A model generated the notes under the pieces. That model saw nothing but the letters and a program-made list of their open reading frames with translations. It was not told the DNA's origin and did not search any database. A stretch of DNA of 64,000 nucleotides from positions 211,046-275,045 of the forward strand of contig CAUJNA010003817.1 of assembly GCA_963377175.1 (NCBI GenBank). The letters are read 5' to 3'. Positions 17,530 to 37,812 of the stretch are shown piece by piece. Origin of the DNA: Effrenium voratum (lineage: Eukaryota; Sar; Dinophyceae; Suessiales; Symbiodiniaceae). The position numbers and the translations under genes were made by a program. The stretch's first letter is position 1. Every line of letters begins with the position of its first letter.

Positions 17530-18102
17530 AGTTAGGATAGGCCTTGCCCATCTTTTTGTGGTACCCGAGCGTGACCCCCACCCTACGCAACATCGGCATT
17601 TTTCAACCATTTTTTCACTATTCAAATCGTCATCCTTATTCATTTTGCATATTTCCACTCAAAACATTTCATAACAGTCTCAACCTCAAAATCCATCAAA
17701 AAAGTCACATTTTTCTCATTTCTATTCCATCATTCATGTCATTGTTAGGATGCTTGAGTGGAAATAGGAGTATAGGGTGGTTCATAGGATATGGTTATTG
17801 GATGGTAGAAAAGATAGGCAAGGTTAAGTTTATTCATTAAAAAAAAACAAAAATAATATTGTTCAAAAAAAAATATTTTCAAAAAAATAATATTGTTCAA
17901 AAAAAAATCAAAAAATACTATTTTCAAAAAATAATATTTTCAAAAAAAAAGTAATTTTTCAAAAAACAAATTCGCAAAAAATAAATTTTCAAAAATATTA
18001 TTCCAAAAATTATGATAAATTATTTAACAATATGTTTATCATAAATTTTGTAGAAATATTATGGGCAAGGTTAGGTAGATAGAATTTTATAACTTAAGTT
18101 CA
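17530..18102 (+). repeat. Left terminal inverted repeat
   Basis: Begins AGTTAGGATAGGCC and ends ATAACTTAAGTTCA. It is the reverse complement of 37239-37812 with few mismatches or indels. The outer 310 bp are of moderate composition; the inner part is A-tract rich with repeated AATATTGTTC/ATTTTC units. A GGCAAGG-type motif occurs at its outer end (17540, inverted), middle (17813-17827) and inner end (18061-18074), possibly integrase or replication-protein sites. Confidence 0.93.
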
Positions 18103-18263
18103 AACAACGCACTTTGAAAGAGTCAAGCAATTTAAGGAACATTAAAATATTTCAATCTTTACAAACCATAAGTACAGTATAATTATAACATATAAGATTT
18201 TACATGTTATTATTATAGTATGATTATAAACATTATGGCAATGCGTTAAATCACCTCACGGTA

Positions 18264-18402
18264 ATCAGCGGTAAGCAAACGCAAATCAGCGGTAAGCAAA
18301 CGCAAATCAGCGGTAAGCAAACGCAAATCAGCGGTAAGCAAACGCAACTCAGCGGTAAGCAAACGCAAATCAGCGGTAAGAAAACGCAAATCAGCAGTAA
18401 GT
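18264..18402 (-). repeat. 21-bp tandem repeat beside left TIR
   Basis: About 6.5 copies of a 21-bp unit (ATCAGCGGTAAGCAAACGCA plus A) lying just inside the left TIR. It reads as LLTADLR repeats on minus because 21 is a multiple of three, but no credible gene contains it. The units are more GC-rich than their surroundings. A role as a replication or packaging site is only a guess. Confidence 0.85.
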
Positions 18403-18477
18403 TGCTTTGTTTTCTGGGTGATGACACAAAAGAGCAAACCCCAAACTCAATTATTAAAGATATTTAGATAATATTCT

Positions 18478-18750: not shown

Positions 18751-18811
18751 GTAAATATTTATATTATATTATAAAATAAAACTTTTAAAACTAAACTTTT
18801 ATTTTACAAAA

Positions 18812-19314: not shown

Positions 19315-19337
19315 TATAAATAATAATAGAAATAATT

Positions 19338-19709
19338 TTAACTACTATTTTTCATCATTTCGCGTATAGTTTCCTGAGTTTCCTTATCACCATTATCGGA
19401 TGGCGATGCATGCCTTCCCCATTTGATAGCAATATTATGAACATCTGTTTCTAAGTTTATACTGTCTTTAGTTTTATCAATATTAATTTTCTTATCATTC
19501 TTACTTAGTTTGAAACTGGCTGGAATACAACTGCATTTGCAGTTCCCTTTCTTTGATATTTCTAATTCGTTCTTCATCTCTAACATCTTCTTACACATAG
19601 GACAAGCAAACTCAACAACTGCTGTTTTATTAATAACTTCTTCACTGTCGTCGTCTGCTGATGAAATTGTTGTTTCTGTTTTATTCTTTTTGTTTTTCTT
19701 TCTTCCCAT
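19338..19709 (-). CDS. Small zinc-ribbon-like protein
   Basis: 123 codons. A Lys-rich start (MGRKKNKKNK) is followed by an acidic linker, then a Cys cluster (CPMCKKM, later CKCSC) spaced like a zinc ribbon, then a charged C-terminus. The gene overlaps the start-side end of its upstream neighbour (19681-19875) by 29 bp, suggesting co-expression. It could bind nucleic acid or host proteins. No family recognised. Confidence 0.6.
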   Translation of the reverse strand: MGRKKNKKNKTETTISSADDDSEEVINKTAVVEFACPMCKKMLEMKNELEISKKGNCKCSCIPASFKLSKNDKKINIDKTKDSINLETDVHNIAIKWGRHASPSDNGDKETQETIREMMKNSS

Positions 19710-19875: not shown

Positions 19876-19927
19876 ATAAAATAATAAATATAAAATATTT
19901 TCTAAATAACTTTAATATTATTTTATT

Positions 19928-20692
19928 ATGTCAGATGTTCCAATAATAAAACCAATAAACATAACTGAATATGAATTCAAACAATCTAAATATGAGCACG
20001 TGCCAAAATTACCATTTAGAAGCATTATAGTTGCGAGTTCGACAGGCGGTAAGACTGTCCTTATTCAAAATTTAATACTGAATGTTTATAGAAATTCATT
20101 TGCAAGAATATATATATTTTCACCCAGTGTTCATAACGATCCAACCTTTACAGAAGTTAAAAAGTATATTAGGGATGAACTACATGTAGATGATGAAAAA
20201 GAACAAATTTATTTTGACAATTACAATCCAATTGATATAGAAAATGTAATTGAAAGACAGAAGAAAATTATTAACTATATGAAGTCTAAAAAGATAAAGA
20301 AACTACATTCAATATTAATCGTGATTGATGATTTCAGCGACGACCCCAAGTTTTTAAGATATTCTAAAATATTACACGGTTTATTTACAAGAGGTAGGCA
20401 CGATGCAATCAATGTTATTTGTTCTTTACAAAAATATAAATCAATCGCAAATATAATTCGTGTTAATGCTTCTTCACTATACATTTTCAGACTCAAAAAC
20501 ATTACAGAACTAATGAGTTTTATTGAAGAAAATAGCGCCATTGTTGATAAACAGCAATTATTAGATATGTATCATCAAGCCGTTAATGACACACCTTATA
20601 GTTTCTTCTACGTGAATATGAATGCTAAAGACATTAACAAAATGTTTCATATCAGATTTGAACAGGCATTTCAAATTACAAATGATGAATAA
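19928..20692 (+). CDS. A32-like genome-packaging ATPase
   Basis: 254 residues, the usual size for the FtsK/HerA-type packaging ATPase of PLVs, Polintons and virophages. It pumps DNA into the preformed capsid. Walker A is ASSTGGKT (residues 36-43), and Walker B is ILIVIDDF with the acidic pair at 134-135. After it comes a FTRGRHD segment and a polar residue cluster (ICSLQKY) where sensor residues of the family sit. The start is the ATG after a very AT-rich leader. The gene is intact and is one of only two plus-strand genes in the left half. Confidence 0.92.
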   Translation: MSDVPIIKPINITEYEFKQSKYEHVPKLPFRSIIVASSTGGKTVLIQNLILNVYRNSFARIYIFSPSVHNDPTFTEVKKYIRDELHVDDEKEQIYFDNYNPIDIENVIERQKKIINYMKSKKIKKLHSILIVIDDFSDDPKFLRYSKILHGLFTRGRHDAINVICSLQKYKSIANIIRVNASSLYIFRLKNITELMSFIEENSAIVDKQQLLDMYHQAVNDTPYSFFYVNMNAKDINKMFHIRFEQAFQITNDE

Positions 20693-20722
20693 AGATATTC
20701 TAATTTAATATAATATAATAAT

Positions 20723-21228: not shown

Positions 21229-22020
21229 TTATATTTTTTGTTTTTCTTCTCCGTCTTCTTCTTCTTCGTCTTCAGTTGGTGCTGGTATTTCTGTTGGACT
21301 TTCAGATGAAGAACTATGAACAGTAATAGGTGGAGAACTATGAACACTAACAATTTCATTAGAAGAACTACTGCTACCTTGTGCATTTCCTGCTGTTATT
21401 TGATTAACTAAATCTGCGATATTTATTGTTGTTGCAATTGCGGTATGTGATAAGTTTAATATTATATCTGCTACTGTAGCGCCGTTGTGTAGCATTATTT
21501 CTATCATTTTTGTCAGTTTGAACTTCTTTTCTTCTTCATCGCTGTCATCCTCGTCTGGTGGTTTCTTTGGCGGTGGTTCTGGTGGTTTGTTGTCGTCGAG
21601 CATTTTAGTAAAGGCTGACACCATTGTGTCGCGTTGGTTTTTCAGTGTTTGTGTTGCTTGCGCTCTTGTTGGTTCATGTCTTTTGTATGTGTTGTGCCAA
21701 AAGTTTTTAAGCATTATTTTAAACATATTATCTTGGTTTTCCTTTACCTTAAACGCTTCAAATGTCATATTTAATTGTTGATTTGCATCATTATATAACC
21801 TTTCTTGAGTCTCTCTGGTTTCTCTTGCGATTGTATCTGTATTGGTTGCAATGTCAATAAATTCTCTCGGTATGCCCTTTTTCATCATTTTCGGTGGTTG
21901 TGTTGTTGTTGGTGTGTTTGGTTTTGTTAGGTTATGTATTGAAAAACTGTCGTCGTGATCATAATTATCATTGAACTTATGCTTCTTTCTTTTCAGTATA
22001 TTTTTAGTTAATATTATCAT
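21229..22020 (-). CDS. Hypothetical protein, Pro/acidic-rich
   Basis: 263 residues from ATG at 22020. A basic N-terminus with an NLS-like patch (LKRKKHK), a Thr/Pro stretch, a helical Gln/Asn-rich middle, a Pro-rich linker (PPEPPPKKPPDEDDSDEEEK), a hydrophobic segment (NGATVADIILNLSHTA), and a Ser/Glu-rich tail. It starts 23 bp after the stop of 22044-23054 and is probably co-transcribed with it. Position in the capsid cluster suggests a structural or assembly role. No family recognised. Confidence 0.6.
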   Translation of the reverse strand: MIILTKNILKRKKHKFNDNYDHDDSFSIHNLTKPNTPTTTQPPKMMKKGIPREFIDIATNTDTIARETRETQERLYNDANQQLNMTFEAFKVKENQDNMFKIMLKNFWHNTYKRHEPTRAQATQTLKNQRDTMVSAFTKMLDDNKPPEPPPKKPPDEDDSDEEEKKFKLTKMIEIMLHNGATVADIILNLSHTAIATTINIADLVNQITAGNAQGSSSSSNEIVSVHSSPPITVHSSSSESPTEIPAPTEDEEEEDGEEKQKI

Positions 22021-22043: not shown

Positions 22044-23054
22044 TTATTTCTTACCTTTACCCTTAAAACTTGCCTTGAGTTCTTCTATTCTACCTCTGCT
22101 TAAATTTGCTATCCATCCGCCATTATCAATAGTGTCTAAAATCATATCCACTAAATATTCTTTGTATGTTCTCGCCCTGCCTCTTCCCTTTTGTTTCAAT
22201 TCTTCTTGTATTTCGCTTTCTTCTGGCACTTGAATTCCTCTTAAATAAAACTGAAATTTAATATCATTTACTGTTAAATTAGGGTTGTCTTTCCAGTAAG
22301 CGGGACTAATAGTATTATCTATTGTTGTTTTAAATAATGGCGTCATTGGCAATGGTGGTGGTTGTTGGGTTGTTGAACTTGATGCTCCTGTTGCTTGTTG
22401 AACTGGTGTCGCGTCAAAATTGTCATCTACTGCTTGAGGTGATTGTTCAACATCTTCTACGTGCATTGTTTGCTGGTCGTCTGCTACTGCTCCGCCTGCT
22501 GGTGCTTGTCGTGGTTCTGTTGGTGCTGATTGTCTGTTTGCCACCATTTTATGAAATAATGTCCCGCCCATCTCTCTTAAATTTGATGCCATCGCTCTGC
22601 CTACTTCTTCCGCTTTCCGCTTTGTTGCAGTTGCTATATCTTGTAATTGTGTATCTACCATTGCCTCGTGTTGTCTTGTCGTTTGTTGTGGTGTTGAAAA
22701 ATCATATTCGTCTGCTATTGCTTGGTCGTTTGTATGCTGTGGTGTATCTGTATCCATCTTATGAACTGCATAAGTGTGTCCGTTTCTGTGTGCTTCCCGT
22801 CTCATCATTATCTCTCTCATTTGCCTGTCTAATATTCTCATTTGTTGGTCTTTCAATAATTCTAAATGGTCGCTCCCGTCAAAAAAACTACCCTGAGGAC
22901 TTGATTTAAAAAATGTAGCATCTCTGTTAGGTAGTTTTCCTGTTAATTGTTCGTTCTCGCCTATTAAGTTAGCGATTTCTTCATAGGTAGGTCGTCGTTT
23001 CAATCCAAATTTTGCATATGGGTTTATCAGTTCTAAACTTGCTGTAGTTGCCAT
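22044..23054 (-). CDS. Hypothetical structural-cluster protein
   Basis: 336 residues. The N-terminus (NPYAKFGLKRRPTYEEI) is compact, followed by an Arg/Met-rich helix, a disordered Gln/Thr/Pro-rich centre, and a folded C-terminal part (from about residue 245) with charged helices ending in a Lys/Gly tail. It lies between the capsid gene and 21229-22020 in the same orientation, as expected for a minor virion protein. I cannot assign a family. Confidence 0.65.
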   Translation of the reverse strand: MATTASLELINPYAKFGLKRRPTYEEIANLIGENEQLTGKLPNRDATFFKSSPQGSFFDGSDHLELLKDQQMRILDRQMREIMMRREAHRNGHTYAVHKMDTDTPQHTNDQAIADEYDFSTPQQTTRQHEAMVDTQLQDIATATKRKAEEVGRAMASNLREMGGTLFHKMVANRQSAPTEPRQAPAGGAVADDQQTMHVEDVEQSPQAVDDNFDATPVQQATGASSSTTQQPPPLPMTPLFKTTIDNTISPAYWKDNPNLTVNDIKFQFYLRGIQVPEESEIQEELKQKGRGRARTYKEYLVDMILDTIDNGGWIANLSRGRIEELKASFKGKGKK

Positions 23055-23157: not shown

Positions 23158-23508
23158 TTAAGTAAATGTTAATTTGTCCAACTCATCGATCCGTTTTTTT
23201 AAATGCTCCTTTGTTGAATGTGGTAGATTTGGTCGGCGTAGTTCCATTGTTAATCTGTCTAATTCATTTTGATAATTTGCTCTGGCGTGTCCTTCTTGAA
23301 TGTGTTTTCTAAATGCTACCGATGCTTCTTGTGAGTTTCTTAATTTCATTTGTTCATGTAGGTGTTTTAGATACTCGTTATCTTTTAGATCAAATGGACT
23401 ATATTTAATTTGTGAGGATTGTAAAAATACTTTACCTTTATTTTTCTTATTATTTATTTTGTGGAATTTATACATTATATATTTATCATAGATTTTAATT
23501 TTAATCAT
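23158..23508 (-). CDS. Hypothetical helical protein
   Basis: 116 residues. A basic N-terminus (YKFHKINNKKNKGK) is followed by a mostly helical charged body with coiled-coil character. Its ATG at 23508 overlaps the end of the old capsid reading frame (23501-23503). A small nucleoprotein-like or scaffold role is possible but unsupported. Confidence 0.5.
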   Translation of the reverse strand: MIKIKIYDKYIMYKFHKINNKKNKGKVFLQSSQIKYSPFDLKDNEYLKHLHEQMKLRNSQEASVAFRKHIQEGHARANYQNELDRLTMELRRPNLPHSTKEHLKKRIDELDKLTFT

Positions 23509-25130
23509 AGAGCAGACTCCCGCTTTCGCGTAATTCCAGAACAGACTCCGAAATCATATGCACAAATAATTCTCGCACATCTTCAAAGTGCTCTGTTATC
23601 AATTTGCACAAATAATTCTCGCACATCTTCATCAGTTGTCAGTGCTCTGTTACTTCGTTTCAATTTAAAAACGAGTAAACCTCCCATTTTCGTATTCTGG
23701 CCTGTAAAATTAGTATCTGCCATTTTCTCAAACGATATACCAATAACGAACTTGTCTTCTCTGTAGCGCTTGTAGGAAATGCTAAAGGCATCTTGGTCGG
23801 GGTTCAAATAGTGTAATGTTCGTCTTAAATAATATGCAGTTTCTGCCATTGATTGACATTCAAACTCTGGATATTTCTTATTATTAATTTGTAATTGCCA
23901 CGTTAAATTTAAATCTTTATCTTGAAAACCTTTACCTTGGAAACGCTCGCGCCCAGCACCATCAGGGTCAGCACCATCAAAAATACGAGAATTAATCATA
24001 GGATTGTAAAAATAGTTCCATCTCTTATAAATATAATTATCGTGTCTGTAGTAATTATTATTATCAGCATCTACACCTGCTCTTGGTGTGCGATACAATG
24101 TAATGAAGCAACCATTTAATTTAGAAGCGGATTTAACAATATTCATATTAATTTCAGTTCCTGCCGCGTTGAATGATTGTGTCATAGTGTGATACATTGG
24201 AAATACAAATTTCAAACTTTGACCTTCTAACAAATGTTTCACTATATTATTGTTGACCGTGTTGTCCAATTGTATTACCTCTGCTCGTAGGATTACATTA
24301 TTTAATTCCCACGAGGTGCTGGTGTCTCCAGTTGTGAAATAATAACCTTTGGCATCATTTTGAGTGTTGACATCAGTTACGGTAAAAGGCGTAACTACTG
24401 GTATATGTTCATCTGATACAATTGTAAATTCCAGTTCAAGTGGAGCATAACGAAGAGGTAAATAATAATTGCTTTCTAACAGTCCGCATACTGGTTTATG
24501 TCCTAATCGCATATAACCATTAGCGCCGGGAATTCCTGCTACCGAATGGCGAGTATATCGCGATGTTAAGTCTCCCCAATTGTTATGGTCTTTTGTAGTT
24601 GAAATTGCAACTGCCTCGGGGGTGGCAGTGGGATTGGTTCGTGTATTGACATCAATAAATTCTGCCAATCCAGTAGCATATGTGTGTCGCCAGTCATCAT
24701 CCCAACGAGGATTAGCGCCACCTTCTAAATCGTCCATATCTCTGGCATCTTGACTTTTAAAGGAATTATACAATTCGCAATGCCTATTGTATTCAATAAT
24801 ATCCTGAACCTGTTGTCCTCCAACAGTGCATCTGTAGCGACTGAAGAAGGATGATAAATTACCTAACGGTCGTCAAAAATGACTTCGTGTTCCGTCGGTG
24901 TTTTGAAGATTTGCAAATAAACGAATAGAAGATAAATCAATATATGTGTTGTCTTCTCCTGATATATGAAATCTAATATTTTTGTTTCCTGCATTGGGAT
25001 TATAGACATTGCTACCTGATGGAAAATAATTAACGTGTCTGCTGTCTGTGATATACTGTGCTGTTTCTGGAAGTCCAAAATTTAGCGAGTTAATCATTGT
25101 AGTTTCTGATTCGGCGATTATATTATCCAT
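23501..25130 (-). pseudogene. Major capsid protein (double jelly-roll), disrupted
   Basis: Major capsid protein of PLV type, which forms the icosahedral shell as trimers. The frame starts at ATG 25130. It runs 85 codons to an in-frame TGA (24873-24875), then continues in the same frame with clear capsid sequence (RYRCTVGGQQVQD near 24835; YCL/VIGISFEKM-type strands later) to a TAA at 23583. Jelly-roll-like beta-rich sequence spans both halves. A second lesion lies at the 3' end: a 25-bp block is duplicated with a 46-bp offset (23560-23584 and 23606-23630), not a multiple of three. The shifted frame beyond it still reads like the original C-terminus, down to a stop at 23501. Intact length would be about 510-530 residues, normal for PLV capsids. 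The usual downstream start near 24773 is a TTG, so it is not a real initiation site. Sequencing error is the alternative to decay. Confidence 0.85.
23560..23652. repeat. Short tandem duplication in capsid 3' end
   Basis: A 25-bp segment starting GCACAAATAATTCTCGCACA occurs at 23560-23584 and 23606-23630, and AGTGCTCTGTTA occurs at 23587-23598 and 23641-23652. The offset is not a multiple of three, so the duplication changes the capsid C-terminus. Confidence 0.85.
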
Positions 25131-25377: not shown

Positions 25378-25385
25378 TATTAATA

Positions 25386-25899: not shown

Positions 25900-26679
25900 T
25901 TAACCCGAATTATCATTCGGGTTGAACCCATTAGAAATGTTCGTAGTAGGATTAATTTCAGTCATACCTTGTCCTGTCCAATTATTGAAACTGTGTTTAT
26001 CTAATAAATTATTGCTTTCTATTTCTCCAGTTATTGCTGCGTCATCAAACATTGCTATAGGATCTCCGCGATTTCTAAATCGTAAGTATCGCGGGTTTTT
26101 CTGTTGATTACTTCCTGATACAAAAGGTGATGAATAAACAGTAGTAGCATATTTGTTTCCGTGTCTATTGTTAATTTCTTGAACAACGGATGAGCCGAGG
26201 GAATGGCCGACCAGTCTATTAACATCTGGATTTTTACTTAATTCTTCCATTGTGTCTTTATATCTTTCGCTTAATTGAATATTATGAGTAGGAATAAAAA
26301 ACAAATCTGCAATGACATCATTGACTTTGTGGCCTAGTCCTGTTTTAGCACCAGTGCCACCAATATATAATGTGTTACCTATTCTTGTTATTCCATTCAC
26401 ATTTGAATACGCGGCGTCTAAACCCTTGACATCATCAATTTTATTTTTATTTTGAACATTGATTTCTTCGGCGTAGCGTGTTTTATGTTTCATTATTTGC
26501 TTATCAAAATGTTTATTGAAACCTCCTATTTTGTCTTCCAATTTCTTTTTATGGTTAAAAAATACATCTTCTATTAAATCCTTACCTGCAGTATATGCTT
26601 TATCACTTGCTACGCCTGCCATCATTTGCGTAGGCGATCTGCCTTCAATAGCACCTAATAATAATTGTCTTCCTATCAT
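25900..26679 (-). CDS. Class-3 lipase / alpha-beta hydrolase
   Basis: 259 residues. The nucleophile elbow VGHSLGSS has the catalytic Ser at 160, Asp206 in RFRNRGDPIAMF and His229 in DKHSF, giving the expected order and spacing of a lipase-3 triad. A preceding strand (TLYIGGTG, 103-110) fits the oxyanion-hole region. The N-terminal ~80 residues are helical and basic. Lipase-like genes are known in some PLVs and virophages, where membrane breach at entry or exit is a plausible role. The gene is divergent from the penton gene, with only 42 bp between starts, so a shared AT-rich bidirectional promoter is likely. Appears intact. Confidence 0.85.
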   Translation of the reverse strand: MIGRQLLLGAIEGRSPTQMMAGVASDKAYTAGKDLIEDVFFNHKKKLEDKIGGFNKHFDKQIMKHKTRYAEEINVQNKNKIDDVKGLDAAYSNVNGITRIGNTLYIGGTGAKTGLGHKVNDVIADLFFIPTHNIQLSERYKDTMEELSKNPDVNRLVGHSLGSSVVQEINNRHGNKYATTVYSSPFVSGSNQQKNPRYLRFRNRGDPIAMFDDAAITGEIESNNLLDKHSFNNWTGQGMTEINPTTNISNGFNPNDNSG

Positions 26680-26721: not shown

Positions 26722-27576
26722 ATGAGTGATAGGTTAACATATAAAAAAATCTATGTTGATAGTGCCTACAGATTGCAAGAAAGTAATTCTACCAGCGATT
26801 TTATTATAGAACTTGACCAAAACTTTGAAATTCCGCCAAGAACAAAAATGTTCGTGACAGAGTGTTCATTCAGCACTCCGTTTTATACAACAGAGAAAGG
26901 GTTTTACGAACGCTTCTATATTATGTTATATAATAGTTCAAATGTCTTATTAAGAAGCACTGCCGTTGATGTATCCGGTGAAATTTATTATGCCAATCAA
27001 TTATCATTTAAAATACAATCAGAATTAAACACGGCATTTAATGATATTGTGCCTGACTTATTCTTAACAGTATATGGACAAAGCGAACGCAAAATGGAAC
27101 TTAAATTAAATGACCCTCTAACTTACAAAATCAAAATACCTACAGATGAAGAATTAGAAACTTATGTAAATGGCGAATGGAACAGAGGACAGTTTGAATA
27201 TGACAATTTAAGACCAAAATCTATTAATTATTTATTAAGTAATTATATTGCCTATGATCCTGCGTCATCTTGGTTAAGTGGATACTTTAATTTAGTTCCT
27301 TTTCAGAATATATACATAAATTGTCCTCAATTAAGCGATTATAAATATTCAGCACCTAATAATTTCAGCAGTTCAGTAATTAAAAAAGTTCAAATCAATC
27401 AACAACTTGGCGGAGTTATAACAGATTTTACAGCGCCCATATATGCAGATTTTATTGATGTAGGCGGTAAAAATATTAAGAGACTACACTTTAGAATAAC
27501 AACTTCAAGAAACGAATTAATTGATTTTCACGGCGTACCCATTTCTTTTAGCATTCTCTTTCAATTAGATAATTGA
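26722..27576 (+). CDS. Penton / minor capsid protein (single jelly-roll)
   Basis: 284 residues from ATG 26722 (an upstream in-frame TTG at 26707 is unlikely to be used). The hallmark start is KKIYVDSAYR followed by SDFIIELDQ and a beta-rich body, ending DFHGVPISFSILFQLD. This is the pattern of PLV/Polinton penton proteins that occupy the capsid vertices. Open throughout, ending in TGA, which shows that TGA is used as a real stop in this element. Divergent from the lipase; followed 114 bp later by a zinc-finger protein gene. Confidence 0.82.
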   Translation: MSDRLTYKKIYVDSAYRLQESNSTSDFIIELDQNFEIPPRTKMFVTECSFSTPFYTTEKGFYERFYIMLYNSSNVLLRSTAVDVSGEIYYANQLSFKIQSELNTAFNDIVPDLFLTVYGQSERKMELKLNDPLTYKIKIPTDEELETYVNGEWNRGQFEYDNLRPKSINYLLSNYIAYDPASSWLSGYFNLVPFQNIYINCPQLSDYKYSAPNNFSSSVIKKVQINQQLGGVITDFTAPIYADFIDVGGKNIKRLHFRITTSRNELIDFHGVPISFSILFQLDN

Positions 27577-27690: not shown

Positions 27691-28245
27691 ATGTCAGAAG
27701 TCGAACCTGGAATTACTAATACAATTGAAGCAGACGTACCAGTAAGTGAATTACCACCAATTGAAGAAGAAGAAGCACCAAAGGCAGAACCAACAATAGA
27801 ACCAACACAAGAAATAAAACCTGTAGAACCTCTTAAAAACAACTCAAAAACTCAAGCGCGTAATGAAAAGAAAATAACCTGTCCAAAATGTGCCAAAACT
27901 TTAACATTAAAATCATACAGATACAGCCACGAACGCAATTGCCAAGGACCATTAGAATCTAAACCCATAAAGCCTAAACCCAAAGCAGTTCCAATAGCAA
28001 AACCTCAAAGGATAGATCATGAAGTAGCGTACAACGAAGAAAATCAACAACCACAACCGCAACAAAATAATATAATAGCGAACACACCGCCCCCAAGAAG
28101 ATCGCAACCACAACCGCCTCCAAACCCGCTACAAAATATAGCGCAACATTACCAATTATTGCAAAATGAATATTTAAGACAGAAGCAAGAAAAATATAAT
28201 GCATTAAATAAGAATATATTTGGTTCAAGAGGAAAGAAAAGATAA
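27691..28245 (+). CDS. Zinc-finger, Pro-rich protein
   Basis: 184 residues. An acidic Pro/Glu-rich N-terminus is followed by one CCHC/C2H2-type finger (CPKCAKTLTLKSYRYSHERNC minus its last residue, around residues 64-83), then a Lys/Pro and Gln/Pro-rich disordered region (QPQPQQ, PPPRRSQPQPPP) and a helical basic C-terminus (NIFGSRGKKR). It could link DNA or host factors to the virion. The upstream region is nearly pure A/T with AATATATAAT repeats. Function unproven. Confidence 0.6.
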   Translation: MSEVEPGITNTIEADVPVSELPPIEEEEAPKAEPTIEPTQEIKPVEPLKNNSKTQARNEKKITCPKCAKTLTLKSYRYSHERNCQGPLESKPIKPKPKAVPIAKPQRIDHEVAYNEENQQPQPQQNNIIANTPPPRRSQPQPPPNPLQNIAQHYQLLQNEYLRQKQEKYNALNKNIFGSRGKKR

Positions 28246-28280: not shown

Positions 28281-30301
28281 ATGTTTTCAACATTATCACT
28301 GGACGGATCAAACAGAATTATAGCAAGTGAATTAGTATTAATAAATTCAACAGAACCATCAACATTAAGCAGTGTTTATGCTACAAAACAAGAATTAGCA
28401 GACACAGCAGGATCATTAGGTGGAGGTTATACAATTGAAGAAGTTGATGCTCTTATTTTAGCACAGAAAAATAAGATAGATGCCAATATTTTAGATATTA
28501 CTGAATTAAACGCAACATCAACAACTATGTTTAATGAACAAGTAAATCAAAACGCAACAATTACAAGCAACTTTAATAATATAACAGCACACGGATTAAC
28601 CATAACTTCAATACTACCGACTATATCAGCAAATACAATTAAACTTGATTCTAATTTTAATAACATTAGTTCGAATACACATTTAATCAGTAATTTAAAT
28701 GCTACAATAACATCGCATATATCATTAATTGACACAAACATTAATAACATAACAGGACACGGAAACACAATAACAACCATTCTTACAGATATAGCAGATT
28801 TACAAGCAGGAGCGGGTGCTTCTTGGACTACAGCTGAAAAAACAACTATTCAAGCAGATGTATCAACATTATATACAAACGATACTAATTTATTCAATAC
28901 TAACACTGCTTACAGTAATACATTTGCTTCAATTATATCAGATAATAATATACAAGATGTATTAATAACTCAAAATTCAAACACAATAAATAGTTTAATA
29001 TCAGCAGATTTACAAAAGTTAGATAAAATAGATACTAACGCTCAATCAGTAGCAGGTGCTGTTAATTTTAGCGATAATGCAACCTTACATAGTGATTTGA
29101 ATATGCTTACTACTGGTTCTATAATATGTAATAAGTTTAGCTGTACCCCTTCACCAAATTTAGGACTACAAATGACTTTTCAAATGTTTAATCGTGAATT
29201 TAATATTAATAGAGATGGTAGAATGTGGATGTCAAGCTCAGGAGGCGTTTGGGAAACGCAAATCGGAGATGCTAATGTTGGTCGTGTATGGATAAAAGAT
29301 CGATTCGGTTTAGGGGCAGTTGGCGTTGTTAATTATGTTTTAAATTGTGCTGGGCAAGCTCGATTTACAAGCGCTGTCCAGTTTATAGGAACAGACAGTG
29401 CAATAAGTCTTAACAATGGTTCATATTTAAATTTTAATAATAATGGTTCAATACGAAGATATACACCAGATGCTACAGAAGGTTTATATATGGCGCATAA
29501 TAATTGTGTTGCTGTTAGTGTTGGCGATATTACTAATTCTTCTAATCAATATTTTATGTGCGACGGTGCTGTATCAAAAACCATATTCAATAAACCAGTT
29601 GATGTATTAGGTGATGTATATACAAATGGCGATTTAACAATGGTTTCTGGTAAAAAGATTGAAGTCAATCAAGTTCAGTCAGTATCAGGAAATACTTTAT
29701 TATTACAAAATTCACCGAGTGGCAATGTTCAATTTTCAAAACAATGAAAACCAAATGTTGAATGTCAAACTCTATTAAGGTGATGCTGATATAAAATATT
29801 TTGAATAGTGGAAGTAATAGCGAATTACGAGGCGACTGGACTATTGACGGTGATATGACTTTTGGAATTGCTCATAAAATCAATTTGAGACATTTAAATA
29901 GTGATGCTGTTTTAAGATTAGAAGCATCAACAACTATTGATAGTTATATTGATGGCACTAAATATTTACAATTGGATGATACTCAATTTTCATCATTTAA
30001 CGGATTTAATTTAAGTAGCGATAAGAGACTGAAAGATAATATAGAAGATGTAGAAGATGATACTGTAAATATGGTAAAACAAATTAAGATTAAAACATTT
30101 GTTAAAAATCAAAAAACTAAAAAAACTGAATTAGGATGGATTGCTCAAGATGTTCAACAATACACAAATCCGAAATATAATATTGTAAATGATTCGGGAG
30201 AATACTTAACGATGTGTTATGATCGTATGGCTTGTATTAGTTGGGATGCATTATCAAAACTAATCGATCGTGTAGAGTATTTGGAAAATGAAGTTTTTTA
30301 A
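28281..30301 (+). pseudogene. Fiber-like protein with S74 chaperone end, broken
   Basis: Part 1, 28281-29747 (488 codons from ATG): an N-terminal segment ending in GGGYTIEEVDALI, then long Asn/Thr/Ile-rich repeats (NATITSNFNNITAHG, NNISSNTHLISNLN) typical of trimeric fiber shafts, then beta-rich sequence. Part 2, about 29801-30301: beta-solenoid-like sequence followed by SSDKRLKDNIEDV, the signature of peptidase-S74 intramolecular chaperones that trimerise phage tail fibers and cleave themselves off. The two parts clearly belong to one protein, but 29745-29800 has a TGA in the first frame and stops in every frame, so at least one stop and indels separate them. The second part lacks an ATG in position. 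It probably encoded the host-attachment fiber. Confidence 0.72.
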
Positions 30302-30807: not shown

Positions 30808-30990
30808 AGGTTTTGAAACCCCCAGAGCGGGGGATTCGAAAACCCTGACCGGGGGGATTTGCCCAAAAATCCTTAAATTAGGTGGTGTTTAGCGGAAACC
30901 CCCAGAGCGGGGGATTCGAAAACCCTAACCCGGGGGATTCGAAAACCCTAACCCGGGGGATTCGAAAACCCTAACCCGGGGGGATTTGAA
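30808..30990 (+). repeat. GC-rich 24-bp minisatellite
   Basis: Copies of GGGGGATTCGAAAACCCTAA plus CCC, with the CCCCCAGAGCGGGGGATTCG block occurring at about 30819 and again at 30899. It is strikingly GC-rich inside an AT-rich element, and contains CCCTAACCC. It sits in the spacer between 30719 and 31075. Confidence 0.85.
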
Positions 30991-31043
30991 ACCATAAATT
31001 TAGGAAAAATATAAAAATATATAGAACTGTTACTATAAAAATA

Positions 31044-31074
31044 TTTCTTGTAAAAAAGTATTTAAAGAAATATT
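31044..31074 (+). promoter_or_regulatory. Shared upstream motif, copy 2
   Basis: TTTCTTGTAAAAAAGTATTT then AAAGAAATATT, ending at the ATG at 31075. A preceding ATATATAGAA...TATAAAAA block is also shared with copy 3. With the start at 31075 there is almost no leader, so the later ATG at 31090 or 31099 could be used. Confidence 0.7.
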
Positions 31075-31902
31075 ATGTATTATAATTATATGGTGAAAAT
31101 GTTCAGTGAGATTGAGCAGGAAGAAATAATTAATGAGTTCTTAAATCAGATAAATATAAATGACATTAAAAGAACGATAAATAGAAAAATTGGAATGTGT
31201 AAAGAATGTAAATTTAATTATAATAATATTCAATTATATAAAACTAAATTATCAGAAAATATTATTAAACACATATGCAAATATAATTATAAAGAATGTT
31301 ATAAATGCAAAAGATTAAAACAGTTGAGCACATTTGTAAATATTGACACTTGTAATAAGTCAAAAGAATTTATCAAACTAACTAAAATAATTGAAAATGA
31401 AAAGGGAGAAGATACAACCGTTACAATACACAACATCAAGGATTATTATTTTACAAAATTATATAAATTTCCGACATTCAAATTTATCAAATCCAATTTA
31501 TTAAAGGATGTTAAAGAAAGGCACAACTACACAAGGGACATACACAACAGAATAAAGGACTGTTATGAATTATACTACAAAGGAAATATTAAAACTGTAA
31601 GTGCTGGAGTAGATTTAGGCGATACACCAATTTATAAAACAGTTGAAATAAAATACATAGAAACATATAAAAATGGTCTAGTAGATAGATTTTTTGATGA
31701 GTATAAGAATGATGATGACATACCAAAAAACCAAAAGAATAGACGGGATTGTTTTAGATATATTGAAAATAATATTTCGAACACGTTAACCATATTCAAA
31801 ATAATATTATCACACATTTTCAATAAGCAAGATAATGCATTTTCCAATATCCTTTTTAATGATGTAGGACAAAATATTTATAAGCACTATACAGAAAAAT
31901 AA
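31075..31902 (+). CDS. Hypothetical protein with paired CxxC sites
   Basis: 275 residues from ATG 31075. Two CxxC motifs in the N-terminal third (CKECKFN about residue 42 and CYKCKRL about 77) suggest a zinc-binding site. The rest is Ile/Asn/Lys-rich and helical with a DIHNRIKDCYELYY segment. It lies in the replication/integration gene cluster and carries the shared upstream motif. No family recognised. Confidence 0.65.
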   Translation: MYYNYMVKMFSEIEQEEIINEFLNQININDIKRTINRKIGMCKECKFNYNNIQLYKTKLSENIIKHICKYNYKECYKCKRLKQLSTFVNIDTCNKSKEFIKLTKIIENEKGEDTTVTIHNIKDYYFTKLYKFPTFKFIKSNLLKDVKERHNYTRDIHNRIKDCYELYYKGNIKTVSAGVDLGDTPIYKTVEIKYIETYKNGLVDRFFDEYKNDDDIPKNQKNRRDCFRYIENNISNTLTIFKIILSHIFNKQDNAFSNILFNDVGQNIYKHYTEK

Positions 31903-32040: not shown

Positions 32041-32985
32041 ATGTTAAAAAATATCACCTTTATTAATATGGCAAATATTAATAAAAATGATATAATTAGT
32101 AAAATATATTATGATAAATCAGGATACGGAAGTATCACAACAACCTATAAGGATGCTAAACAAAAGGAACAAAGCATAACCTTAAATGATGTTAAAGAAT
32201 GGTTTCAAAAGAACATAGAACAGAAGAAGCAATTAAGAGGCAAAAATTCATTTATTGCTCCACATCCATACTTTGAATTTCAATTAGATTTATTTTTTAT
32301 TAATGACATACCCAATCAAAAATTTAAAGTAGGGATGGTTTTAATTGATATATTTACCAGATACTCTACAGTAATACCTATTAAATCAAAACAACCGCCT
32401 GACATATTAGCGGGAGTAATGGAAGGAATGCAGAAAATGAAGGGCAAACCAGAAATTATGTATAGCGACGAGGAAGGCAGTTTATATAATAAAACAGTTG
32501 AAGATTATTTCAAAGAAGAAGGAATAGAATTATACCGCACAAGAGGACATCCTAATTTTGCAGAACGTTTTATAAAAACCTACAAGGATATGCTTTATAA
32601 AAGAGTTGAAGCAGATGAAAAGAAGGGGAAGGACAATATACAATGGATAGATTATAATTTTGAAATATTAATAACTTATAATAATAAAATGGAACATTCA
32701 AGCATAGGAATGACACCAGCGGAAGCATTGAAGGAGAAAAACAATTATAAAGTAAAAATGAAAATGGCAACCGAAGCAACCAGAACCCGTAAATATCCTG
32801 AAATTAACATAGGTGACGAAGTGAAGATTTACAGAAAGAAAGCAATAACTGAAAAAGAAAGGAGTAGCAATTGGTTACCTACAAAATATAAGGTTGAAAG
32901 GATTGAAAAAAAGTTAGGTCAAACTTATTTTTATTTGGAACATAACACACGACCATTCTTAAGATTTGAAATTTTAAAAGTTTAA
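32041..32985 (+). CDS. Retrovirus-type DDE integrase
   Basis: 314 residues from ATG 32041 (ATG 32068 is an alternative; the open frame upstream lacks an ATG). RVE-fold core: FQLDLFF (Asp83), the conserved IDIFTRYS strand, YSDEEGSLY (Asp143), and NFAERFIKTYKDM (Glu175), the DDE triad that joins the element's ends to host DNA. The Asp143-Glu175 gap is 31 residues, a little shorter than the classic 35. The C-terminal domain (INIGDEVKIYR...YKVERIEKKLGQTYFYLE) resembles the SH3/chromodomain-type tail of Polinton integrases. It accounts for the TIRs and the short target duplication. Intact. Confidence 0.88.
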   Translation: MLKNITFINMANINKNDIISKIYYDKSGYGSITTTYKDAKQKEQSITLNDVKEWFQKNIEQKKQLRGKNSFIAPHPYFEFQLDLFFINDIPNQKFKVGMVLIDIFTRYSTVIPIKSKQPPDILAGVMEGMQKMKGKPEIMYSDEEGSLYNKTVEDYFKEEGIELYRTRGHPNFAERFIKTYKDMLYKRVEADEKKGKDNIQWIDYNFEILITYNNKMEHSSIGMTPAEALKEKNNYKVKMKMATEATRTRKYPEINIGDEVKIYRKKAITEKERSSNWLPTKYKVERIEKKLGQTYFYLEHNTRPFLRFEILKV

Positions 32986-33016
32986 AAAAGTATATAGAAT
33001 TTGTATTATAAAAAGT

Positions 33017-33048
33017 TTTCTTGTAAAAAAGTTATTTAAAGAAATATG
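33017..33048 (+). promoter_or_regulatory. Shared upstream motif, copy 3
   Basis: TTTCTTGTAAAAAAGTTATT then TAAAGAAATATG, 28 bp upstream of the replication-protein ATG. It differs from copy 2 by one inserted T. Confidence 0.7.
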
Positions 33049-33076
33049 TTTATAATATAAATATATAGATTATAGT

Positions 33077-36000
33077 ATGAGTAAGTTTTTACAAAGTAAT
33101 ATCAGCGAGTTAAATAAACTCAAAAGAAATTCAACACAAAACGCAAATAATGCAACTAAAAAAAGGGTTGATGAGATCGTTAAACTTTATACTGAAAGGA
33201 AGTTATCAAATGTAGCAACTGCAGAAAATTATATCAAAGGTTTAACATCTACTGATAAAAAGGTTTATGACAAAGCATTTCAAAAATACAAAGATAATAT
33301 CAAAAAGATCAAGGATACAAAACCACTAAATCAAAGAATGACAGAAACAAGATCGAAGAAGGAAGAAGAAGAAGAAGGCAAAGAATATAAGAAAAGAGGA
33401 AGGAAGAAGAGAAATACATATTTTGTTATGTATGACCTTTATATAATTGGTGATAAGGAGAAAATGAAATCAAAACCCGCTTTTAAAGCATTTGGTAAGT
33501 ATTATTATCTTTGGAACTATGAGCGATTAAGTGCTACAGTTCAAATAGTAGGAGAAGAATTTCCTAAGGAATTTATCCGCAAGAGAATTTTGAAAAAAAC
33601 AGGTGTTTCGATGGATACTGATTTTGGAGAGACGGAACAAATAAATCCAGAATTTACAAAAATAATAAAAATAAAGAAAAACGATGAGGAGTTTGCCAAA
33701 CACGTGGAACATTTAGAAAATCAGGAATATGGCTTAGATGGTATAAAAATATTGTCCGTGGAGATGATGAATAAATCAGGTGAAAAGTTTGATATATTAG
33801 CAGAAAATTTAAGAGATGCATCTAACGTATCCGTTTTCCATGCATATATATATACACATTTAAAAATGAGTGAGGACACTATACGAAAGGCAATTAAACA
33901 AGGCAATTATATTAAAAATGAATGTTGGATAAATTCATTAACTGATTTTTACAGTGATACAATCATGAATGAAAGAACCCGCAACAGACTAACCAGAGAT
34001 AAAATTATTGAAATCATAGGTAGGAATGATTTTAAGGAAGTAGGAGCAACCATTCAAGAAATGGAAGCAGTATTTAAGCAGTTTAATATTCAAGTTAGAA
34101 TTTTTAATTTTGTAAATGAACTTATTTACAAATATAACCCAAAAATAAGAAACCGTCATATTAAAACATTTTACGCTATGGTGAAAAATAACCATATTTA
34201 TACATTAAACCACGATTTAAGCAAAATACAACAAAAACAAGTAATATCAAAACTACCCACTATAAAGGCACACACTGATTATTATATAAATGAAAGAGAG
34301 GAACCCCCGCAATACAAAATGATTAAATGTATAGATGATATACTCAAAATAAAAACTGATGATAAAACAAGGGAAGTATATTTAGTACCCGAAGATAATG
34401 ATTTGGCAGAAATATTTTTCCAGTTGATAAATATTGGATATGAACCCAGAATTAAATACACAGGTATTATTGATGAAATTAGAGTCAAATTTAACAAGAT
34501 AACATATATCATAAAGACTCAAAATTTAATTAAATCATCCAGCGATGGTTGGATCGCAGCAAATAATGAAACTATGTACAACAATATGAATAAAGCAATG
34601 TTTAATTTTAATAAATCTTTATTTATTTTATCTCACAAATCTTTTTATAATGACATTGATATAAAAATATTAAACGAAACAAGGACTGTAGCACCTTCGG
34701 GATTATTATGGGATAAATTTAATTTAATGCGTAAAACTGAAATCGGTGAAAATAAGGCATTTACAAAGGGGTTCATAGATATTACTGAAATACCAGTTTT
34801 TAATCAGTTTGACAATTGGAAGGAATACAATGATGCAATTAATATTGATGAACTCCACGATCTAACATTATATTATATTGAAGTTAACTATCCGAATATA
34901 CCAAATAAATACAGTATGGAACGTATTAAACGTAAACATCTTTTGGAGGAAAGTTTAAAATTTAAATCAAAAGAAGAAGTTGAGTTCATAATGACAAAAA
35001 CGTTACTGGGGAATAAAGAGGGCTTAATGTTTAATAAAAAATATAATTTAGTTTATGGTAAGTTTTTAAAAAAGTTTATTAATCAATATAATATTAAAGT
35101 ATTATATTATAAACAACCTTCGTTTATTCATAAAACAAACTATAAGGATATGGTTAATGAACTTCGGAAAACTACTATAGATGATGATGATGATGATGAT
35201 GATATACTAAGTAAAAAATTAATAGCAAATGTCAATTTTGGATTATTAGAGAAGGGAGAGACTACCGCGCATCAAAGCATTTTGTTTAAGAGTATTGATG
35301 AAGCAATCCATTATCAAACAGAATACGGAGGCAAAATTCATAAGTTATCACAGATAGAAGGCAAAATTCATAGGTTATCACGTATAGGTACAGAAGACGA
35401 AGAGTGTAAAGAGGAGTATGAAGAAGAGTATAAATATGAAATAGATAGAGAAGATATAAATGCATCATACTATATATTAAAATTAAAGGATAAAGCAGTA
35501 TTAAGAAACGGCTATAGATATATTAAAGAACTACTCATGCAACATCAAAATTTTAAAATGAACCAAGACATTTACAAATTAATAATCAACGATATTAATG
35601 TATATAGTGTGAAAACCGATGCTTTTGTAATTGATTCATACAATGTAGAGAAAGCAAAGCAATTATTAGAATTTCATAATGATATAGGAGGTTGGAAAGT
35701 TTCTGGGCGAGACAATGAAATTAATCTTCCTACTGTAAAATATGAAGTTGTTAAGAATGATCTAACAAAAATACCAGTTCATGAAAGTAAAACTATTGAT
35801 ATTAAAGATGAATACGACACTGATAACATTATAGAGATTGTTAAACAGAATAACCCTATTATGATCAGGGGCGAACTACCAGGCACAGGAAAATCATATA
35901 TATGTCAAAAAATGGTTGATAAAAAATATAAGGTAATATTTATTTGTCCTACTAATAAATTATTACAGGCATTCGAGGGTGAAGCAATGACTATAAATAA

Positions 36001-37141
36001 GCTTTTTGGAATAAACTACGGCGATGCAAAATTAGAACCATTTGATTTTACAGAATTTGATGTAATCGTATTTGATGAAATTTATTTCAGTAATTTAAAT
36101 ATATATTGGAGAATAAAACAATTTGTAGAGCAGAATAAACACAACAAAATTATAATAGCAACGGGAGACACCAAGCAATTAAAACCAGTTCAAGAGATAA
36201 CAAATACTCGAGACTATGAATTATATACTGATAATATTATAGATAACATTTTTGAATATAATATTTTGTTAAAAGAATGTAAGAGACTTAACACACAGGA
36301 AGATAAGGATAAACTAAGAAATATTAAATTTGATATTTTTGAAAATAAATTACCTATTATTAAAGTTATTGAAAAATATTTCGAATATACAACTGACATA
36401 AGCAATTCTAACAACAACATAGCATTTTTAAATACAACTTGTAAAAATGTCTCAAATGAAATTAGAAAATTAGAAAATAGAAAAGATGAATACGAAGTAG
36501 GCGAATTTTTAACATGTAGGGAATATACTAAAACTAAAACATCAGTGTTTAATGTAAATTTCAAATATAAAATAGTTCATATCGGAAGCGATGGAATATT
36601 TACATTAAAGAATGTCAAAACCGAAATTTTACAATCCGTAGAAGTTGCTAAAATAAGAAGCAATTTTATATTTGCATATTGCTCAACTTGTCATTCTGCC
36701 CAAGGCAGTAGCATTGATGATACCATAACAATTTTTGATTATAACCATTTTTTGGTAAAGAATTATCCAGAATGGATATGGACTGCAATTACAAGGTGTA
36801 GAGATTTAAACAAAGTTAAATTTTATAAATATACAAAAGATATTGATGATGTATTTAATCAAAAATGTATTATGAGTTATTTTGAAAGGAAAATATTAAA
36901 TTACAAAGAACAGGACAGGAAAGCAAAAAGAACCATATCTAAAGAAGGTTATGTAAATACACAGTGGTTTTTAGACAATATAAATAATCAATGCAATTAC
37001 TGCGGATGTGGTTTTACTATTGATATGAAAAATGGTAATATCATTACAAATCTAACAGCACAACGAAAAGATAATGAATTAACTCATACAATAGAAAATA
37101 TCATTCCTTATTGTTGTCGTTGTAATTGTAGTTGTAAATGA
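33077..37141 (+). CDS. PolB-like region / SF1 helicase / Cys-rich fusion protein
   Basis: 1354 residues, intact. Residues 1-110 are basic and helical. The middle has segments reminiscent of a family-B polymerase palm: a motif-A-like site with ENKAFTKGF (557-566), a motif-B-like KLIANVNFGLLEKG (714-728) and a motif-C-like VKTDAFVI (845-852). Catalytic acidic residues expected at motif A and at the first position of motif C are replaced, so a working polymerase is doubtful. Then a superfamily-1 helicase: Walker A GELPGTGKS (932-940), Walker B VFDEIYF (Asp1000), GDTKQL (1030-1035), SAQGSS (motif V area, 1207-1212), AITRCRD (motif VI, Arg1240). The C-terminus has CNYCGC (from Cys1306) and CCRCNCSC, an HNH-like zinc module. 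Presumed replication protein. I recall polymerase-relic/helicase fusions from transpoviron-type elements. Confidence 0.85.
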   Translation: MSKFLQSNISELNKLKRNSTQNANNATKKRVDEIVKLYTERKLSNVATAENYIKGLTSTDKKVYDKAFQKYKDNIKKIKDTKPLNQRMTETRSKKEEEEEGKEYKKRGRKKRNTYFVMYDLYIIGDKEKMKSKPAFKAFGKYYYLWNYERLSATVQIVGEEFPKEFIRKRILKKTGVSMDTDFGETEQINPEFTKIIKIKKNDEEFAKHVEHLENQEYGLDGIKILSVEMMNKSGEKFDILAENLRDASNVSVFHAYIYTHLKMSEDTIRKAIKQGNYIKNECWINSLTDFYSDTIMNERTRNRLTRDKIIEIIGRNDFKEVGATIQEMEAVFKQFNIQVRIFNFVNELIYKYNPKIRNRHIKTFYAMVKNNHIYTLNHDLSKIQQKQVISKLPTIKAHTDYYINEREEPPQYKMIKCIDDILKIKTDDKTREVYLVPEDNDLAEIFFQLINIGYEPRIKYTGIIDEIRVKFNKITYIIKTQNLIKSSSDGWIAANNETMYNNMNKAMFNFNKSLFILSHKSFYNDIDIKILNETRTVAPSGLLWDKFNLMRKTEIGENKAFTKGFIDITEIPVFNQFDNWKEYNDAINIDELHDLTLYYIEVNYPNIPNKYSMERIKRKHLLEESLKFKSKEEVEFIMTKTLLGNKEGLMFNKKYNLVYGKFLKKFINQYNIKVLYYKQPSFIHKTNYKDMVNELRKTTIDDDDDDDDILSKKLIANVNFGLLEKGETTAHQSILFKSIDEAIHYQTEYGGKIHKLSQIEGKIHRLSRIGTEDEECKEEYEEEYKYEIDREDINASYYILKLKDKAVLRNGYRYIKELLMQHQNFKMNQDIYKLIINDINVYSVKTDAFVIDSYNVEKAKQLLEFHNDIGGWKVSGRDNEINLPTVKYEVVKNDLTKIPVHESKTIDIKDEYDTDNIIEIVKQNNPIMIRGELPGTGKSYICQKMVDKKYKVIFICPTNKLLQAFEGEAMTINKLFGINYGDAKLEPFDFTEFDVIVFDEIYFSNLNIYWRIKQFVEQNKHNKIIIATGDTKQLKPVQEITNTRDYELYTDNIIDNIFEYNILLKECKRLNTQEDKDKLRNIKFDIFENKLPIIKVIEKYFEYTTDISNSNNNIAFLNTTCKNVSNEIRKLENRKDEYEVGEFLTCREYTKTKTSVFNVNFKYKIVHIGSDGIFTLKNVKTEILQSVEVAKIRSNFIFAYCSTCHSAQGSSIDDTITIFDYNHFLVKNYPEWIWTAITRCRDLNKVKFYKYTKDIDDVFNQKCIMSYFERKILNYKEQDRKAKRTISKEGYVNTQWFLDNINNQCNYCGCGFTIDMKNGNIITNLTAQRKDNELTHTIENIIPYCCRCNCSCK

Positions 37142-37238
37142 TAAATACCGTCAGAAATATTAATATTATTTTTAAAATGATGCATGAAAGAGATAAGATA
37201 TATACACAATTTAATGGTTATCAATTGAATTATTATCC
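37142..37238. other. Spacer before right TIR
   Basis: AT-rich gap. A 25-codon frame starting at an ATG near 37178 runs into the TIR and is probably not a gene. Confidence 0.6.
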
Positions 37239-37812
37239 TGAACTTAAGTTATAAAATTCTATCTACCTAACCTTGCCCATAATATTTCTAAAAAAAATAT
37301 GATAAAAATATTGTAAGATAATTTATCATAATTTTTGGAATAATATTTTTGAAAAATATTTTTTTGGGAATTTATTTCTTGGAAAATTACTTTTTTTTTG
37401 AAAATATTATTTTTTGAAAATAGTATTTTTTGATTTTTTTTTTGAACAATATTATTTTGTTTGAAAATATTATTTTTTGAACAATATTATTTTTGATTTT
37501 TTTTAATGAATAAACTTAACCTTGCCTATCTTTTCTACCATCCAATAACCATATCCTATGAACCACCCTATACTCCTATTTCCACTCAAGCATCCTAACA
37601 ATGACATGAATGATGGAATAGAAATGAGAAAAATGTGACTTTTTTGATGGATTTTGAGGTTGAGACTGTTATGAAATGTTTTGAGTGGAAATATGCAAAA
37701 TGAATAAGGATGACGATTTGAATAGTGAAAAATGGTTGAAAAATGCCGATGTTGCGTAGGGTGGGGGTCACGCTCGGGTACCACAAAAAGATGGGCAAGG
37801 CCTACCCTAACT
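37239..37812 (-). repeat. Right terminal inverted repeat
   Basis: Reverse complement of 17530-18102. The outer end read inward is AGTTAGGGTAGGCC, with one substitution against the left end. It carries the same A-tract array and GGCAAGG-type motifs. Confidence 0.93.

Follow-up and report, generated by a model that had tools for sequence, protein, structure and literature searches.

Dinoflagellate genomes carry many copies of Polinton-like viruses (PLVs), and an AT-rich block in the Effrenium voratum assembly bears on how these elements choose their insertion sites and whether they may still make particles. The window, i.e., the whole 64,000-nucleotide stretch that was analyzed, had been read from its letters as holding a complete-length PLV, with terminal inverted repeats (TIRs) of about 573 bp and a CTAAG duplication, in a probable dinoflagellate genome. 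The outer features of that reading are borne out. The block exists as described, with exact boundaries at 17530..37812 (20,283 bp) and a sharp step in GC content from 0.538 and 0.532 in the flanking host DNA to 0.293 within the element. The TIRs measure 573 and 574 nt, are identical in 556 of 575 alignment columns, and are bordered by CTAAG on both sides, and the element falls in the 15–40 kb range of linear, TIR-bounded PLVs. The host flanks are present at one locus only in the assembly, where they adjoin the TIRs directly; no empty insertion site for this copy was found in the same assembly. The features of the locus are as follows:

17525..17529, unstranded: left target-site duplication (TSD), CTAAG, exactly 5 bp in the sequence
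17530..18102, plus strand: left TIR, 573 nt, beginning AGTTAGG, by alignment to the right TIR
18237..18425, plus strand: 21-bp tandem repeat within the left end (family D2)
19338..19709, minus strand: small open reading frame (ORF) with Cys pairs, from the ORF list; weak zinc-ribbon match, E 0.057
19928..20692, plus strand: predicted A32-like DNA-packaging ATPase (Pfam Pox_A32, E 5.7e-12, above cut-off)
21229..22020, minus strand: 263-aa ORF, no Pfam match
22044..23054, minus strand: 336-aa ORF, no Pfam match
23504..25130, minus strand: major capsid protein (MCP) gene, interrupted, by tblastn with the relative P0009 and the predicted fold of P0009
25386..25829, minus strand: 147-aa ORF, no Pfam match
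25900..26679, minus strand: lipase/hydrolase-like protein with a GHSLG motif (Pfam Hydrolase_4, E 0.011, below cut-off)
26722..27576, plus strand: putative penton (minor capsid) protein, by an N-terminal motif
27691..28245, plus strand: ORF in which a zinc-finger-like Cys/His stretch was seen by eye; Pfam gave nothing above cut-off
28281..29747, plus strand: fibre-like protein, by position and repeats in the translation, by eye; no domain match above cut-off
29855..30301, plus strand: C-terminal part of the fibre with an S74 chaperone domain (Pfam Peptidase_S74, E 4.3e-11, above cut-off)
30815..30985, plus strand: GC-rich 23-bp tandem repeats (family D6)
31075..31902, plus strand: 275-aa ORF, from the ORF list
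32041..32985, plus strand: predicted rve (retrovirus-type) integrase (Pfam rve, E 7.1e-4, below cut-off)
33077..37141, plus strand: 1354-aa replication protein with predicted vOTU, pPolB palm, SF1 helicase and HNH-like tail
37239..37812, minus strand: right TIR, 574 nt, by alignment to the left TIR
37813..37817, unstranded: right TSD, CTAAG, exactly 5 bp in the sequence

The genes named in the sequence-only reading fare unevenly. The packaging ATPase is upheld by its Pox_A32 match and supplies the A32-type enzyme characteristic of PLVs; a PHROGs search with seven proteins returned, as its single match with E <0.01, a terminase for this ATPase (E 3.8e-11), and no relatives of it were found among phage records. 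For the integrase and the lipase, profile matches exist, but both lie below the Pfam cut-off; the GHSLG motif is what we take to mark the latter as a lipase or hydrolase. The fibre keeps its S74 tail, but the region is two ORFs, not one. The penton candidate, which we take to be one from its N-terminal motif, had no Pfam match and only a chance-level match in the PDB (E 0.74). The 275-aa ORF is shorter than the matching open frame of 320–324 codons in four of the seven other copies compared. No tyrosine recombinase was found in the 15 scanned of the element's 17 ORFs of at least 100 aa. Among PDB sequences, the integrase matches retroviral integrases best (2x6n, E 0.016; 3oym, PFV integrase by name, E 0.03; chains range from 0.016 to 0.12), and the only NCBIfam match among six proteins searched is an IS481 transposase for the integrase (E 2.6e-9, below cut-off). 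Its candidate catalytic residues are D83, D143 and E175, presumably the active-site triad.

The capsid gene is present in the window, but the ORF first reported as capsid is only a fragment of it: the gene is broken by an internal stop and by a short local duplication with a frame change near the C-terminus, leaving 23583–24737 as its longest open piece. The full-length relative P0009, 91% identical to the window gene by tblastn, is predicted to be a capsid protein of the double-jelly-roll type, the MCP fold of PLVs, although its model is weak (mean pLDDT 54) and its PDB fold matches span residues 21–292 only. Its best viral fold match is M4QM72 (E 2.9e-10), a protein of TvV-S1, a PLV of a green alga, but the two share just 13% identity, with a TM-score of 0.27 from this weak model. 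By sequence, the MCP had no match in the PDB. No promoter footprint stood out upstream of the gene, because that region is conserved throughout.

The helicase fusion of the earlier reading does contain an SF1 helicase by profile, and it also holds vOTU and polymerase domains. In the 1354-aa protein, the predicted order is vOTU, pPolB palm, SF1 helicase (residues 936–1240) and HNH-like tail (1306–1350). The vOTU domain carries a candidate Cys and His (C283/H373), its OTU fold matches having middling Z scores (<8), and the palm is modeled as protein-primed; both are features of Tlr1-like pPolB-S1H proteins. The helicase sits after the palm (Pfam Viral_helicase1, E 7.8e-7 over residues 935–1038, above cut-off). 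Polymerase motif C lacks its first Asp in an alignment of 23, and motif A of the window copy lacks the conserved acidic residue. No exonuclease motif was recognized by eye; the fold alignment with phi29 begins at phi29 residue 6, so an exonuclease remnant fold may exist. The N-terminus before the vOTU domain is helical or alpha-beta in the predicted structure, without an assigned fold, and the whole protein gave only a chance-level PDB sequence match (E 0.039). With a broken capsid gene and a polymerase that lacks the motif A residue, the window copy itself is likely defective; the element is thus complete in length but not in its genes.

The window copy is one of many. The TIR terminus pattern matched 89 places in the assembly and none for the reversed control, which excludes chance, and these 89 ends pair into at least 39 TIR-to-TIR copies, 38 of them spanning 19.0–23.0 kb and one 11.8 kb. 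The TSD is exactly 5 bp in 37 of the 41 copies seen at both ends, the other four having no matching duplication, while mispaired flanks of the first set gave 0 matches in 306. Unpartnered single ends do not enter this count, nor do C3276 and C1056, for which the retrieved stretch had no right end, nor C936 and two places of C900, whose single ends repeat the C849 flanks; C2811 is scored as a failure, its edge being uncertain because the right TIR match starts at TIR base 17, beside a G run. Some target duplications fall in simple repeats.

Is such a family still viral? Over 29 copies (29 of 30 loci, L030 being left out), capsid dN/dS stays at 0.10–0.16 in all six dS bins, and integrase dN/dS is 0.114 over eight copies; in both cases these are best-scoring copies rather than a random sample. 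A neutral null built with similar best-copy picking gives 0.77. Values near 0.1 for both genes suggest recent function. A value of 0.355 for the fusion N-terminus (four copies) was set aside, because half of the eight copies were not open, and the high pS pointed to a faulty frame or alignment. The rival reading is that the family now spreads only within the genome, as a giant transposon, with its capsid genes as leftovers. Damage to many copies fits it: among 126 scored integrases, 30 contain a stop within the matched span; four of eight copies have a replication gene that is not open across the stretch compared, so decay is also under way; and the window capsid gene is interrupted. Moreover, the deleted 11.8-kb copy keeps proper TIRs and a TSD, and a transposable-element-like route has been argued for OmPLV (PMC12721341). 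Against it, dN/dS is as low for the capsid gene as for the integrase, close pairs included, and stops are absent from 79 of the 81 capsid genes and 133 of the 137 penton genes scored in the assembly (the best-scoring ones). We regard the transposon-only reading as unlikely, albeit the strongest of the alternatives.

The insertion sites share a pattern. They show a palindromic preference, with GC at positions -3/-2 and 8/9 around an AT-rich center; the pattern was found on 17 sites and then repeated on 20 new ones. At the key offset, the dinucleotide is CC or GG for 30 of the 34 discovery-set ends, against a background of 0.16; in the new set, where the signal is weaker and broader, the same holds for 26 of its 40 ends (local background 0.22, p 5e-9). 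In the pooled sites, GC reaches 97% at -2/8 and 89% at -3/9, and AT 77–81% at the three central bases; 29 of 37 sites (15 of 20 in the new set alone) have at least one central pyrimidine-purine step, versus 46% of host positions. Since this pattern is shared, symmetrical about the duplication and accompanied by duplications, the element's integrase likely chooses the landing site. Alternatively, survival or assembly of insertions in certain places, such as GC-rich simple repeats, may account for the pattern: several sites lie within C or G runs, and one base inward the dinucleotide signal in the new set is almost as high (23 of 40). Palindromy about the duplication, with a signal that fades nearly to background only a few bases away, would not readily come from survival or assembly, and we find this explanation improbable. 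In its mechanism, though not in membership, the site resembles those of HIV-1 and other retroviral integrases with a 5-bp stagger (PMC4422553), which likewise have a weak palindrome, an AT-rich flexible center and a disfavor of AT at the duplication ends; unlike them, this integrase, of a different virus, shows a strong GC preference two to three bases outside the duplication. No target motif reported for a PLV integrase was found in the literature searched.

As to lineage, the element is, judged by its gene content, a Tlr1-type PLV. With the Tlr1 element of Tetrahymena and its Tlr1-like pPolB-S1H protein (PMC11071308), it shares the order vOTU, protein-primed palm, SF1 helicase and nuclease-like C-terminus, the rve integrase, and a motif C without the first Asp; it differs in its HNH-like tail, where Tlr1 has GIY-YIG, and in its dinoflagellate rather than ciliate host. 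A bona fide Polinton/Maverick (Eupolinton-like) with an ordinary pPolB would have the same rve integrase (found here, though with a Pfam match below cut-off), TIRs, A32 ATPase and capsid gene. The 5-bp TSD falls in the 5–6 bp given for Maverick/Polinton elements in PMC8547959, and similar repeats in Breviolum are named Mavericks (PMC11071213). Against this, the palm, rather than standing alone with an exonuclease, shares one protein with an SF1 helicase and an HNH-like tail, a Tlr1-type architecture (PMC11071308); motif C departs as described; and 5 bp lies outside the typical rve TSD of 6 bp (PMC12220804). Such an assignment is thus quite improbable. OmPLV of Oxyrrhis marina (Haro 2025, PMC12721341) is likewise AT-rich, with many partly decayed dinoflagellate copies and a helicase SF1-pPolB fusion, but it has an N-terminal helicase, a full exonuclease, a tyrosine recombinase, no TSD and no rve integrase. 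Membership of that lineage was rejected, since here the helicase is C-terminal to the palm, a TSD is present and the ORFs scanned hold no tyrosine recombinase.

In IMG/VR, the MCP alone led to 0 of 3 pattern stretches confirmed as relatives, the MCP alignment to 0 of 151 and the penton alignment to 0 of 47; the fusion protein led to 1 of 68, diverged. Dinoflagellate PLVs have been published before, and the earlier remark that they are little described in this host group is out of date (PMC12721341, PMC10120064, PMC11071213). A dinoflagellate ‘Dino’ PLV/EVE group has been described (Bellas 2023, PMC10120064), and protist EVEs are mostly 15–30 kb, about half with TIRs (PMC10120064, PMC11071213). 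Like our locus, the dinoflagellate genomes treated there, for ‘Dino’ and for Symbiodiniaceae Mavericks, contain capsid genes of PLV type or repeats of the Maverick kind; in the parts available, neither a survey of TSDs nor a target motif was found.

The host is very likely a dinoflagellate, because the assembly (1.156 Gb) holds 97 peridinin-chlorophyll-protein matches and 0 of 14 control genomes were positive. This agrees with the sequence-only reading, though not with the spliced-leader relic on which it partly drew: no relic was found when up to three mismatches were allowed to what we take to be the 22-nt leader, or up to two to its final 15 nt. That a contaminant viral contig was misjoined to host DNA is scarcely credible, for all the sharp GC step at the element edges, given insertions with TSDs at many separate places (37 of 41 examined), single-locus host flanks joined straight to the TIRs, and the peridinin-chlorophyll-protein matches in the same assembly.

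Altogether, we consider it highly probable that the block is a full-length integrated Tlr1-type PLV, inserted likely by its own rve integrase, and replicated and packaged along the following lines, with enzyme activities and capsid predicted from folds and motifs. Acting with a 5-bp stagger at palindromic sites whose outer bases are GC-rich and whose middle is AT-rich, the integrase would attach the element to host DNA through its two TIR ends. The 1354-aa protein would copy the DNA: its palm is predicted to be protein-primed, its SF1 helicase would open the duplex, and its vOTU protease is predicted to release the priming portion. The A32 ATPase would package the copies into double-jelly-roll capsids, and these may reach new sites by infection or re-integration; virions, re-infection and helper dependence are what we infer from this scheme.

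A bolder proposal joins two claims: that the rve integrase recognizes as its target a palindrome of 13 bp (a GC pair, an AT-rich center of 5 bp and a second GC pair) by a lentiviral-like DNA-bending logic, and that most genomic copies record repeated infection of a dinoflagellate by real virions, rather than intragenomic transposition. The second follows if capsid genes have been under selection at every family depth sampled. We advance the pair tentatively, at slightly under an even chance. If true, a target-site code would be known for a PLV for the first time. Because dozens of full-length copies carry clean duplications, the target pattern can be measured and tested in vitro, and it links the integrase of a protist DNA virus to retroviral intasomes. 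The selection signal in the capsid genes, in turn, makes the question of virus or transposon testable in a likely culturable alga.

The element is 20,283 bp long with both edges exact in the window sequence and a GC content of 0.293, as anticipated by the sequence-only reading, which had described a ~20.3-kb AT-rich block with terminal inverted repeats (TIRs) and a CTAAG duplication. Host GC is 0.538 to the left and 0.532 to the right. The two TIRs (573 and 574 nt) are identical in 556 of 575 aligned columns, and only a length of 5 matches when target-site duplications (TSDs) of 3 to 15 are tried at this copy. The main features are:

17525-17529 and 37813-37817, CTAAG duplication
17530-18102 and 37239-37812, left and right TIRs
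23504-25130, minus strand, capsid gene
26722-27576, plus strand, putative penton gene
32041-32985, plus strand, rve-type integrase gene
33077-37141, plus strand, replication gene

A host-like ORF of 233 aa (16716-17417, minus strand) starts ~110 bp from the insertion, which may put the element in the region upstream of this ORF. Elsewhere in the host sequence, the left end of the window (1-1000) is ~1 kb of almost pure ATT-type simple repeat (GC 0.10), and an isolated 174-nt match to eukaryotic LSU rRNA (51367-51540, minus strand, 68.9 bits) is likely an rRNA relic. GC-rich 15-bp tandem repeats at 41600-42974 leave three overlapping forward frames open across 203 to 288 codons, probably a coincidence of repeat length.

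The assembly containing the window (1.156 Gb, 3699 contigs) holds 89 occurrences of the TIR terminus, 44 and 45 by strand, and none of the reversed control. Thirty-nine pairs of these ends face each other, the window's own among them; 38 pairs span 19.0-23.0 kb and one spans 11.8 kb. Counting best-scoring copies, and as lower bounds, there are at least 126 integrase matches (30 containing a stop), at least 81 capsid matches (2 with a stop), and at least 137 putative penton matches (4 with a stop). An exact 5-bp duplication flanks 37 of the 41 copies examined at both ends (18 from a first batch, the window copy, and 22 from a later batch), the exceptions being those on contigs C2811, C362, C2280, and C3517; mispaired flanks from the first set gave a 5-bp match in 0/306 cases. 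At a TIR end the flank is common to contigs C849, C936, and C900 (loci L059, L082, and L083), pointing to a single insertion that was segmentally duplicated or is present in alternative contigs.

The peridinin-chlorophyll-protein family gives 97 matches in the host assembly, with 0/14 control genomes positive; this pigment protein is not known outside dinoflagellates. The spliced-leader relic previously claimed was not recovered, as a search of the window matched neither the 22-nt leader nor its last 15 nt.

PLVs are already known in dinoflagellates. Published examples are a ‘Dino’ capsid cluster and, in Polarella, 2,535 capsid genes (PMC10120064), as well as the dinoflagellate PLV OmPLV (PMC12721341). 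In Breviolum, Mavericks lie at the borders of chromatin domains (PMC11071213), and metagenomes of Karenia lysates contain PLV contigs (PMC13037468). The element fits the Tlr1 type and differs from OmPLV in fusion order, integrase, and TSD (PMC12721341).

A 96-nt stretch, 71% identical between 30996-31091 and 32969-33064, directly precedes both the ORF at 31075 and the replication gene, and inspection by eye shows none ahead of the capsid genes; it may be an early promoter common to the two. Sequence just ahead of the capsid gene (25160-25386) is strongly conserved across 30 copies and contains a short open frame, possibly encoding a small conserved protein. In the replication protein, the alignment of residues 411-550 with phi29 takes in the phage enzyme from its residue 6 onward, a position inside the exonuclease domain; a remnant of that domain may thus survive in a protein type described as lacking one. 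An IMG/VR contig (locus L081, 10001-18504) carries a split, diverged relative of this protein (33% identity); by eye, a P-loop ORF and an integrase of rve-like type lie close to it.

Is the family viral or a transposon? Among copies chosen for high protein score, capsid dN/dS is 0.10-0.16 in every one of six divergence bins, close pairs included (29 genes), and integrase dN/dS is 0.114 (8 copies), against 0.77 in a neutral simulation with similar picking of copies. The capsid was therefore under selection in lineages ancestral to the sampled copies, as expected if particles matter. Against a virus still live today stand the damage in the window copy, whose capsid gene is interrupted, the damage in 4/8 replication genes, and searches of IMG/VR that confirmed no relative of the capsid or putative penton.

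The new part of the finding is the target pattern. With the duplication numbered 1-5, CC or GG occupies positions -3,-2 or 8,9 at 30/34 ends of the first 17 sites, compared with 0.16 in surrounding flanks. In a second set of 20 sites, fetched later, the figure is 26/40 (local 0.22, p 5e-9), and 23/40 ends carry CC or GG one base inward, so that compared with the first 17 sites the preferred zone is wider and the signal less strong. In the pooled, symmetrised sites, GC reaches 97% at -2/8 and 89% at -3/9, the three central bases are 77-81% AT, and position 2 is almost without G. A pyrimidine-purine step occurs at least once in the centre of 29/37 sites (15/20 new) and a central purine-pyrimidine step in 9/37 (6/20 new), each against 46% in the host. 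All four outer positions are GC, with at least two central AT, at 23/37 sites versus 3.3% in the host, under a rule set post hoc and counting old and new sites together. Full-text literature searches that covered passages of PMC12220804, PMC8547959, and PMC7805220 found no target motif for a PLV integrase, and EMALE virophages are described as integrating without observed sequence specificity (PMC8547959). According to PMC4422553, retroviruses with 5-bp duplications favor a flexible centre and AT-rich central triplets and avoid A/T at the duplication ends; the element family resembles them in its centre and end features, and the outer GC pairs are its addition.
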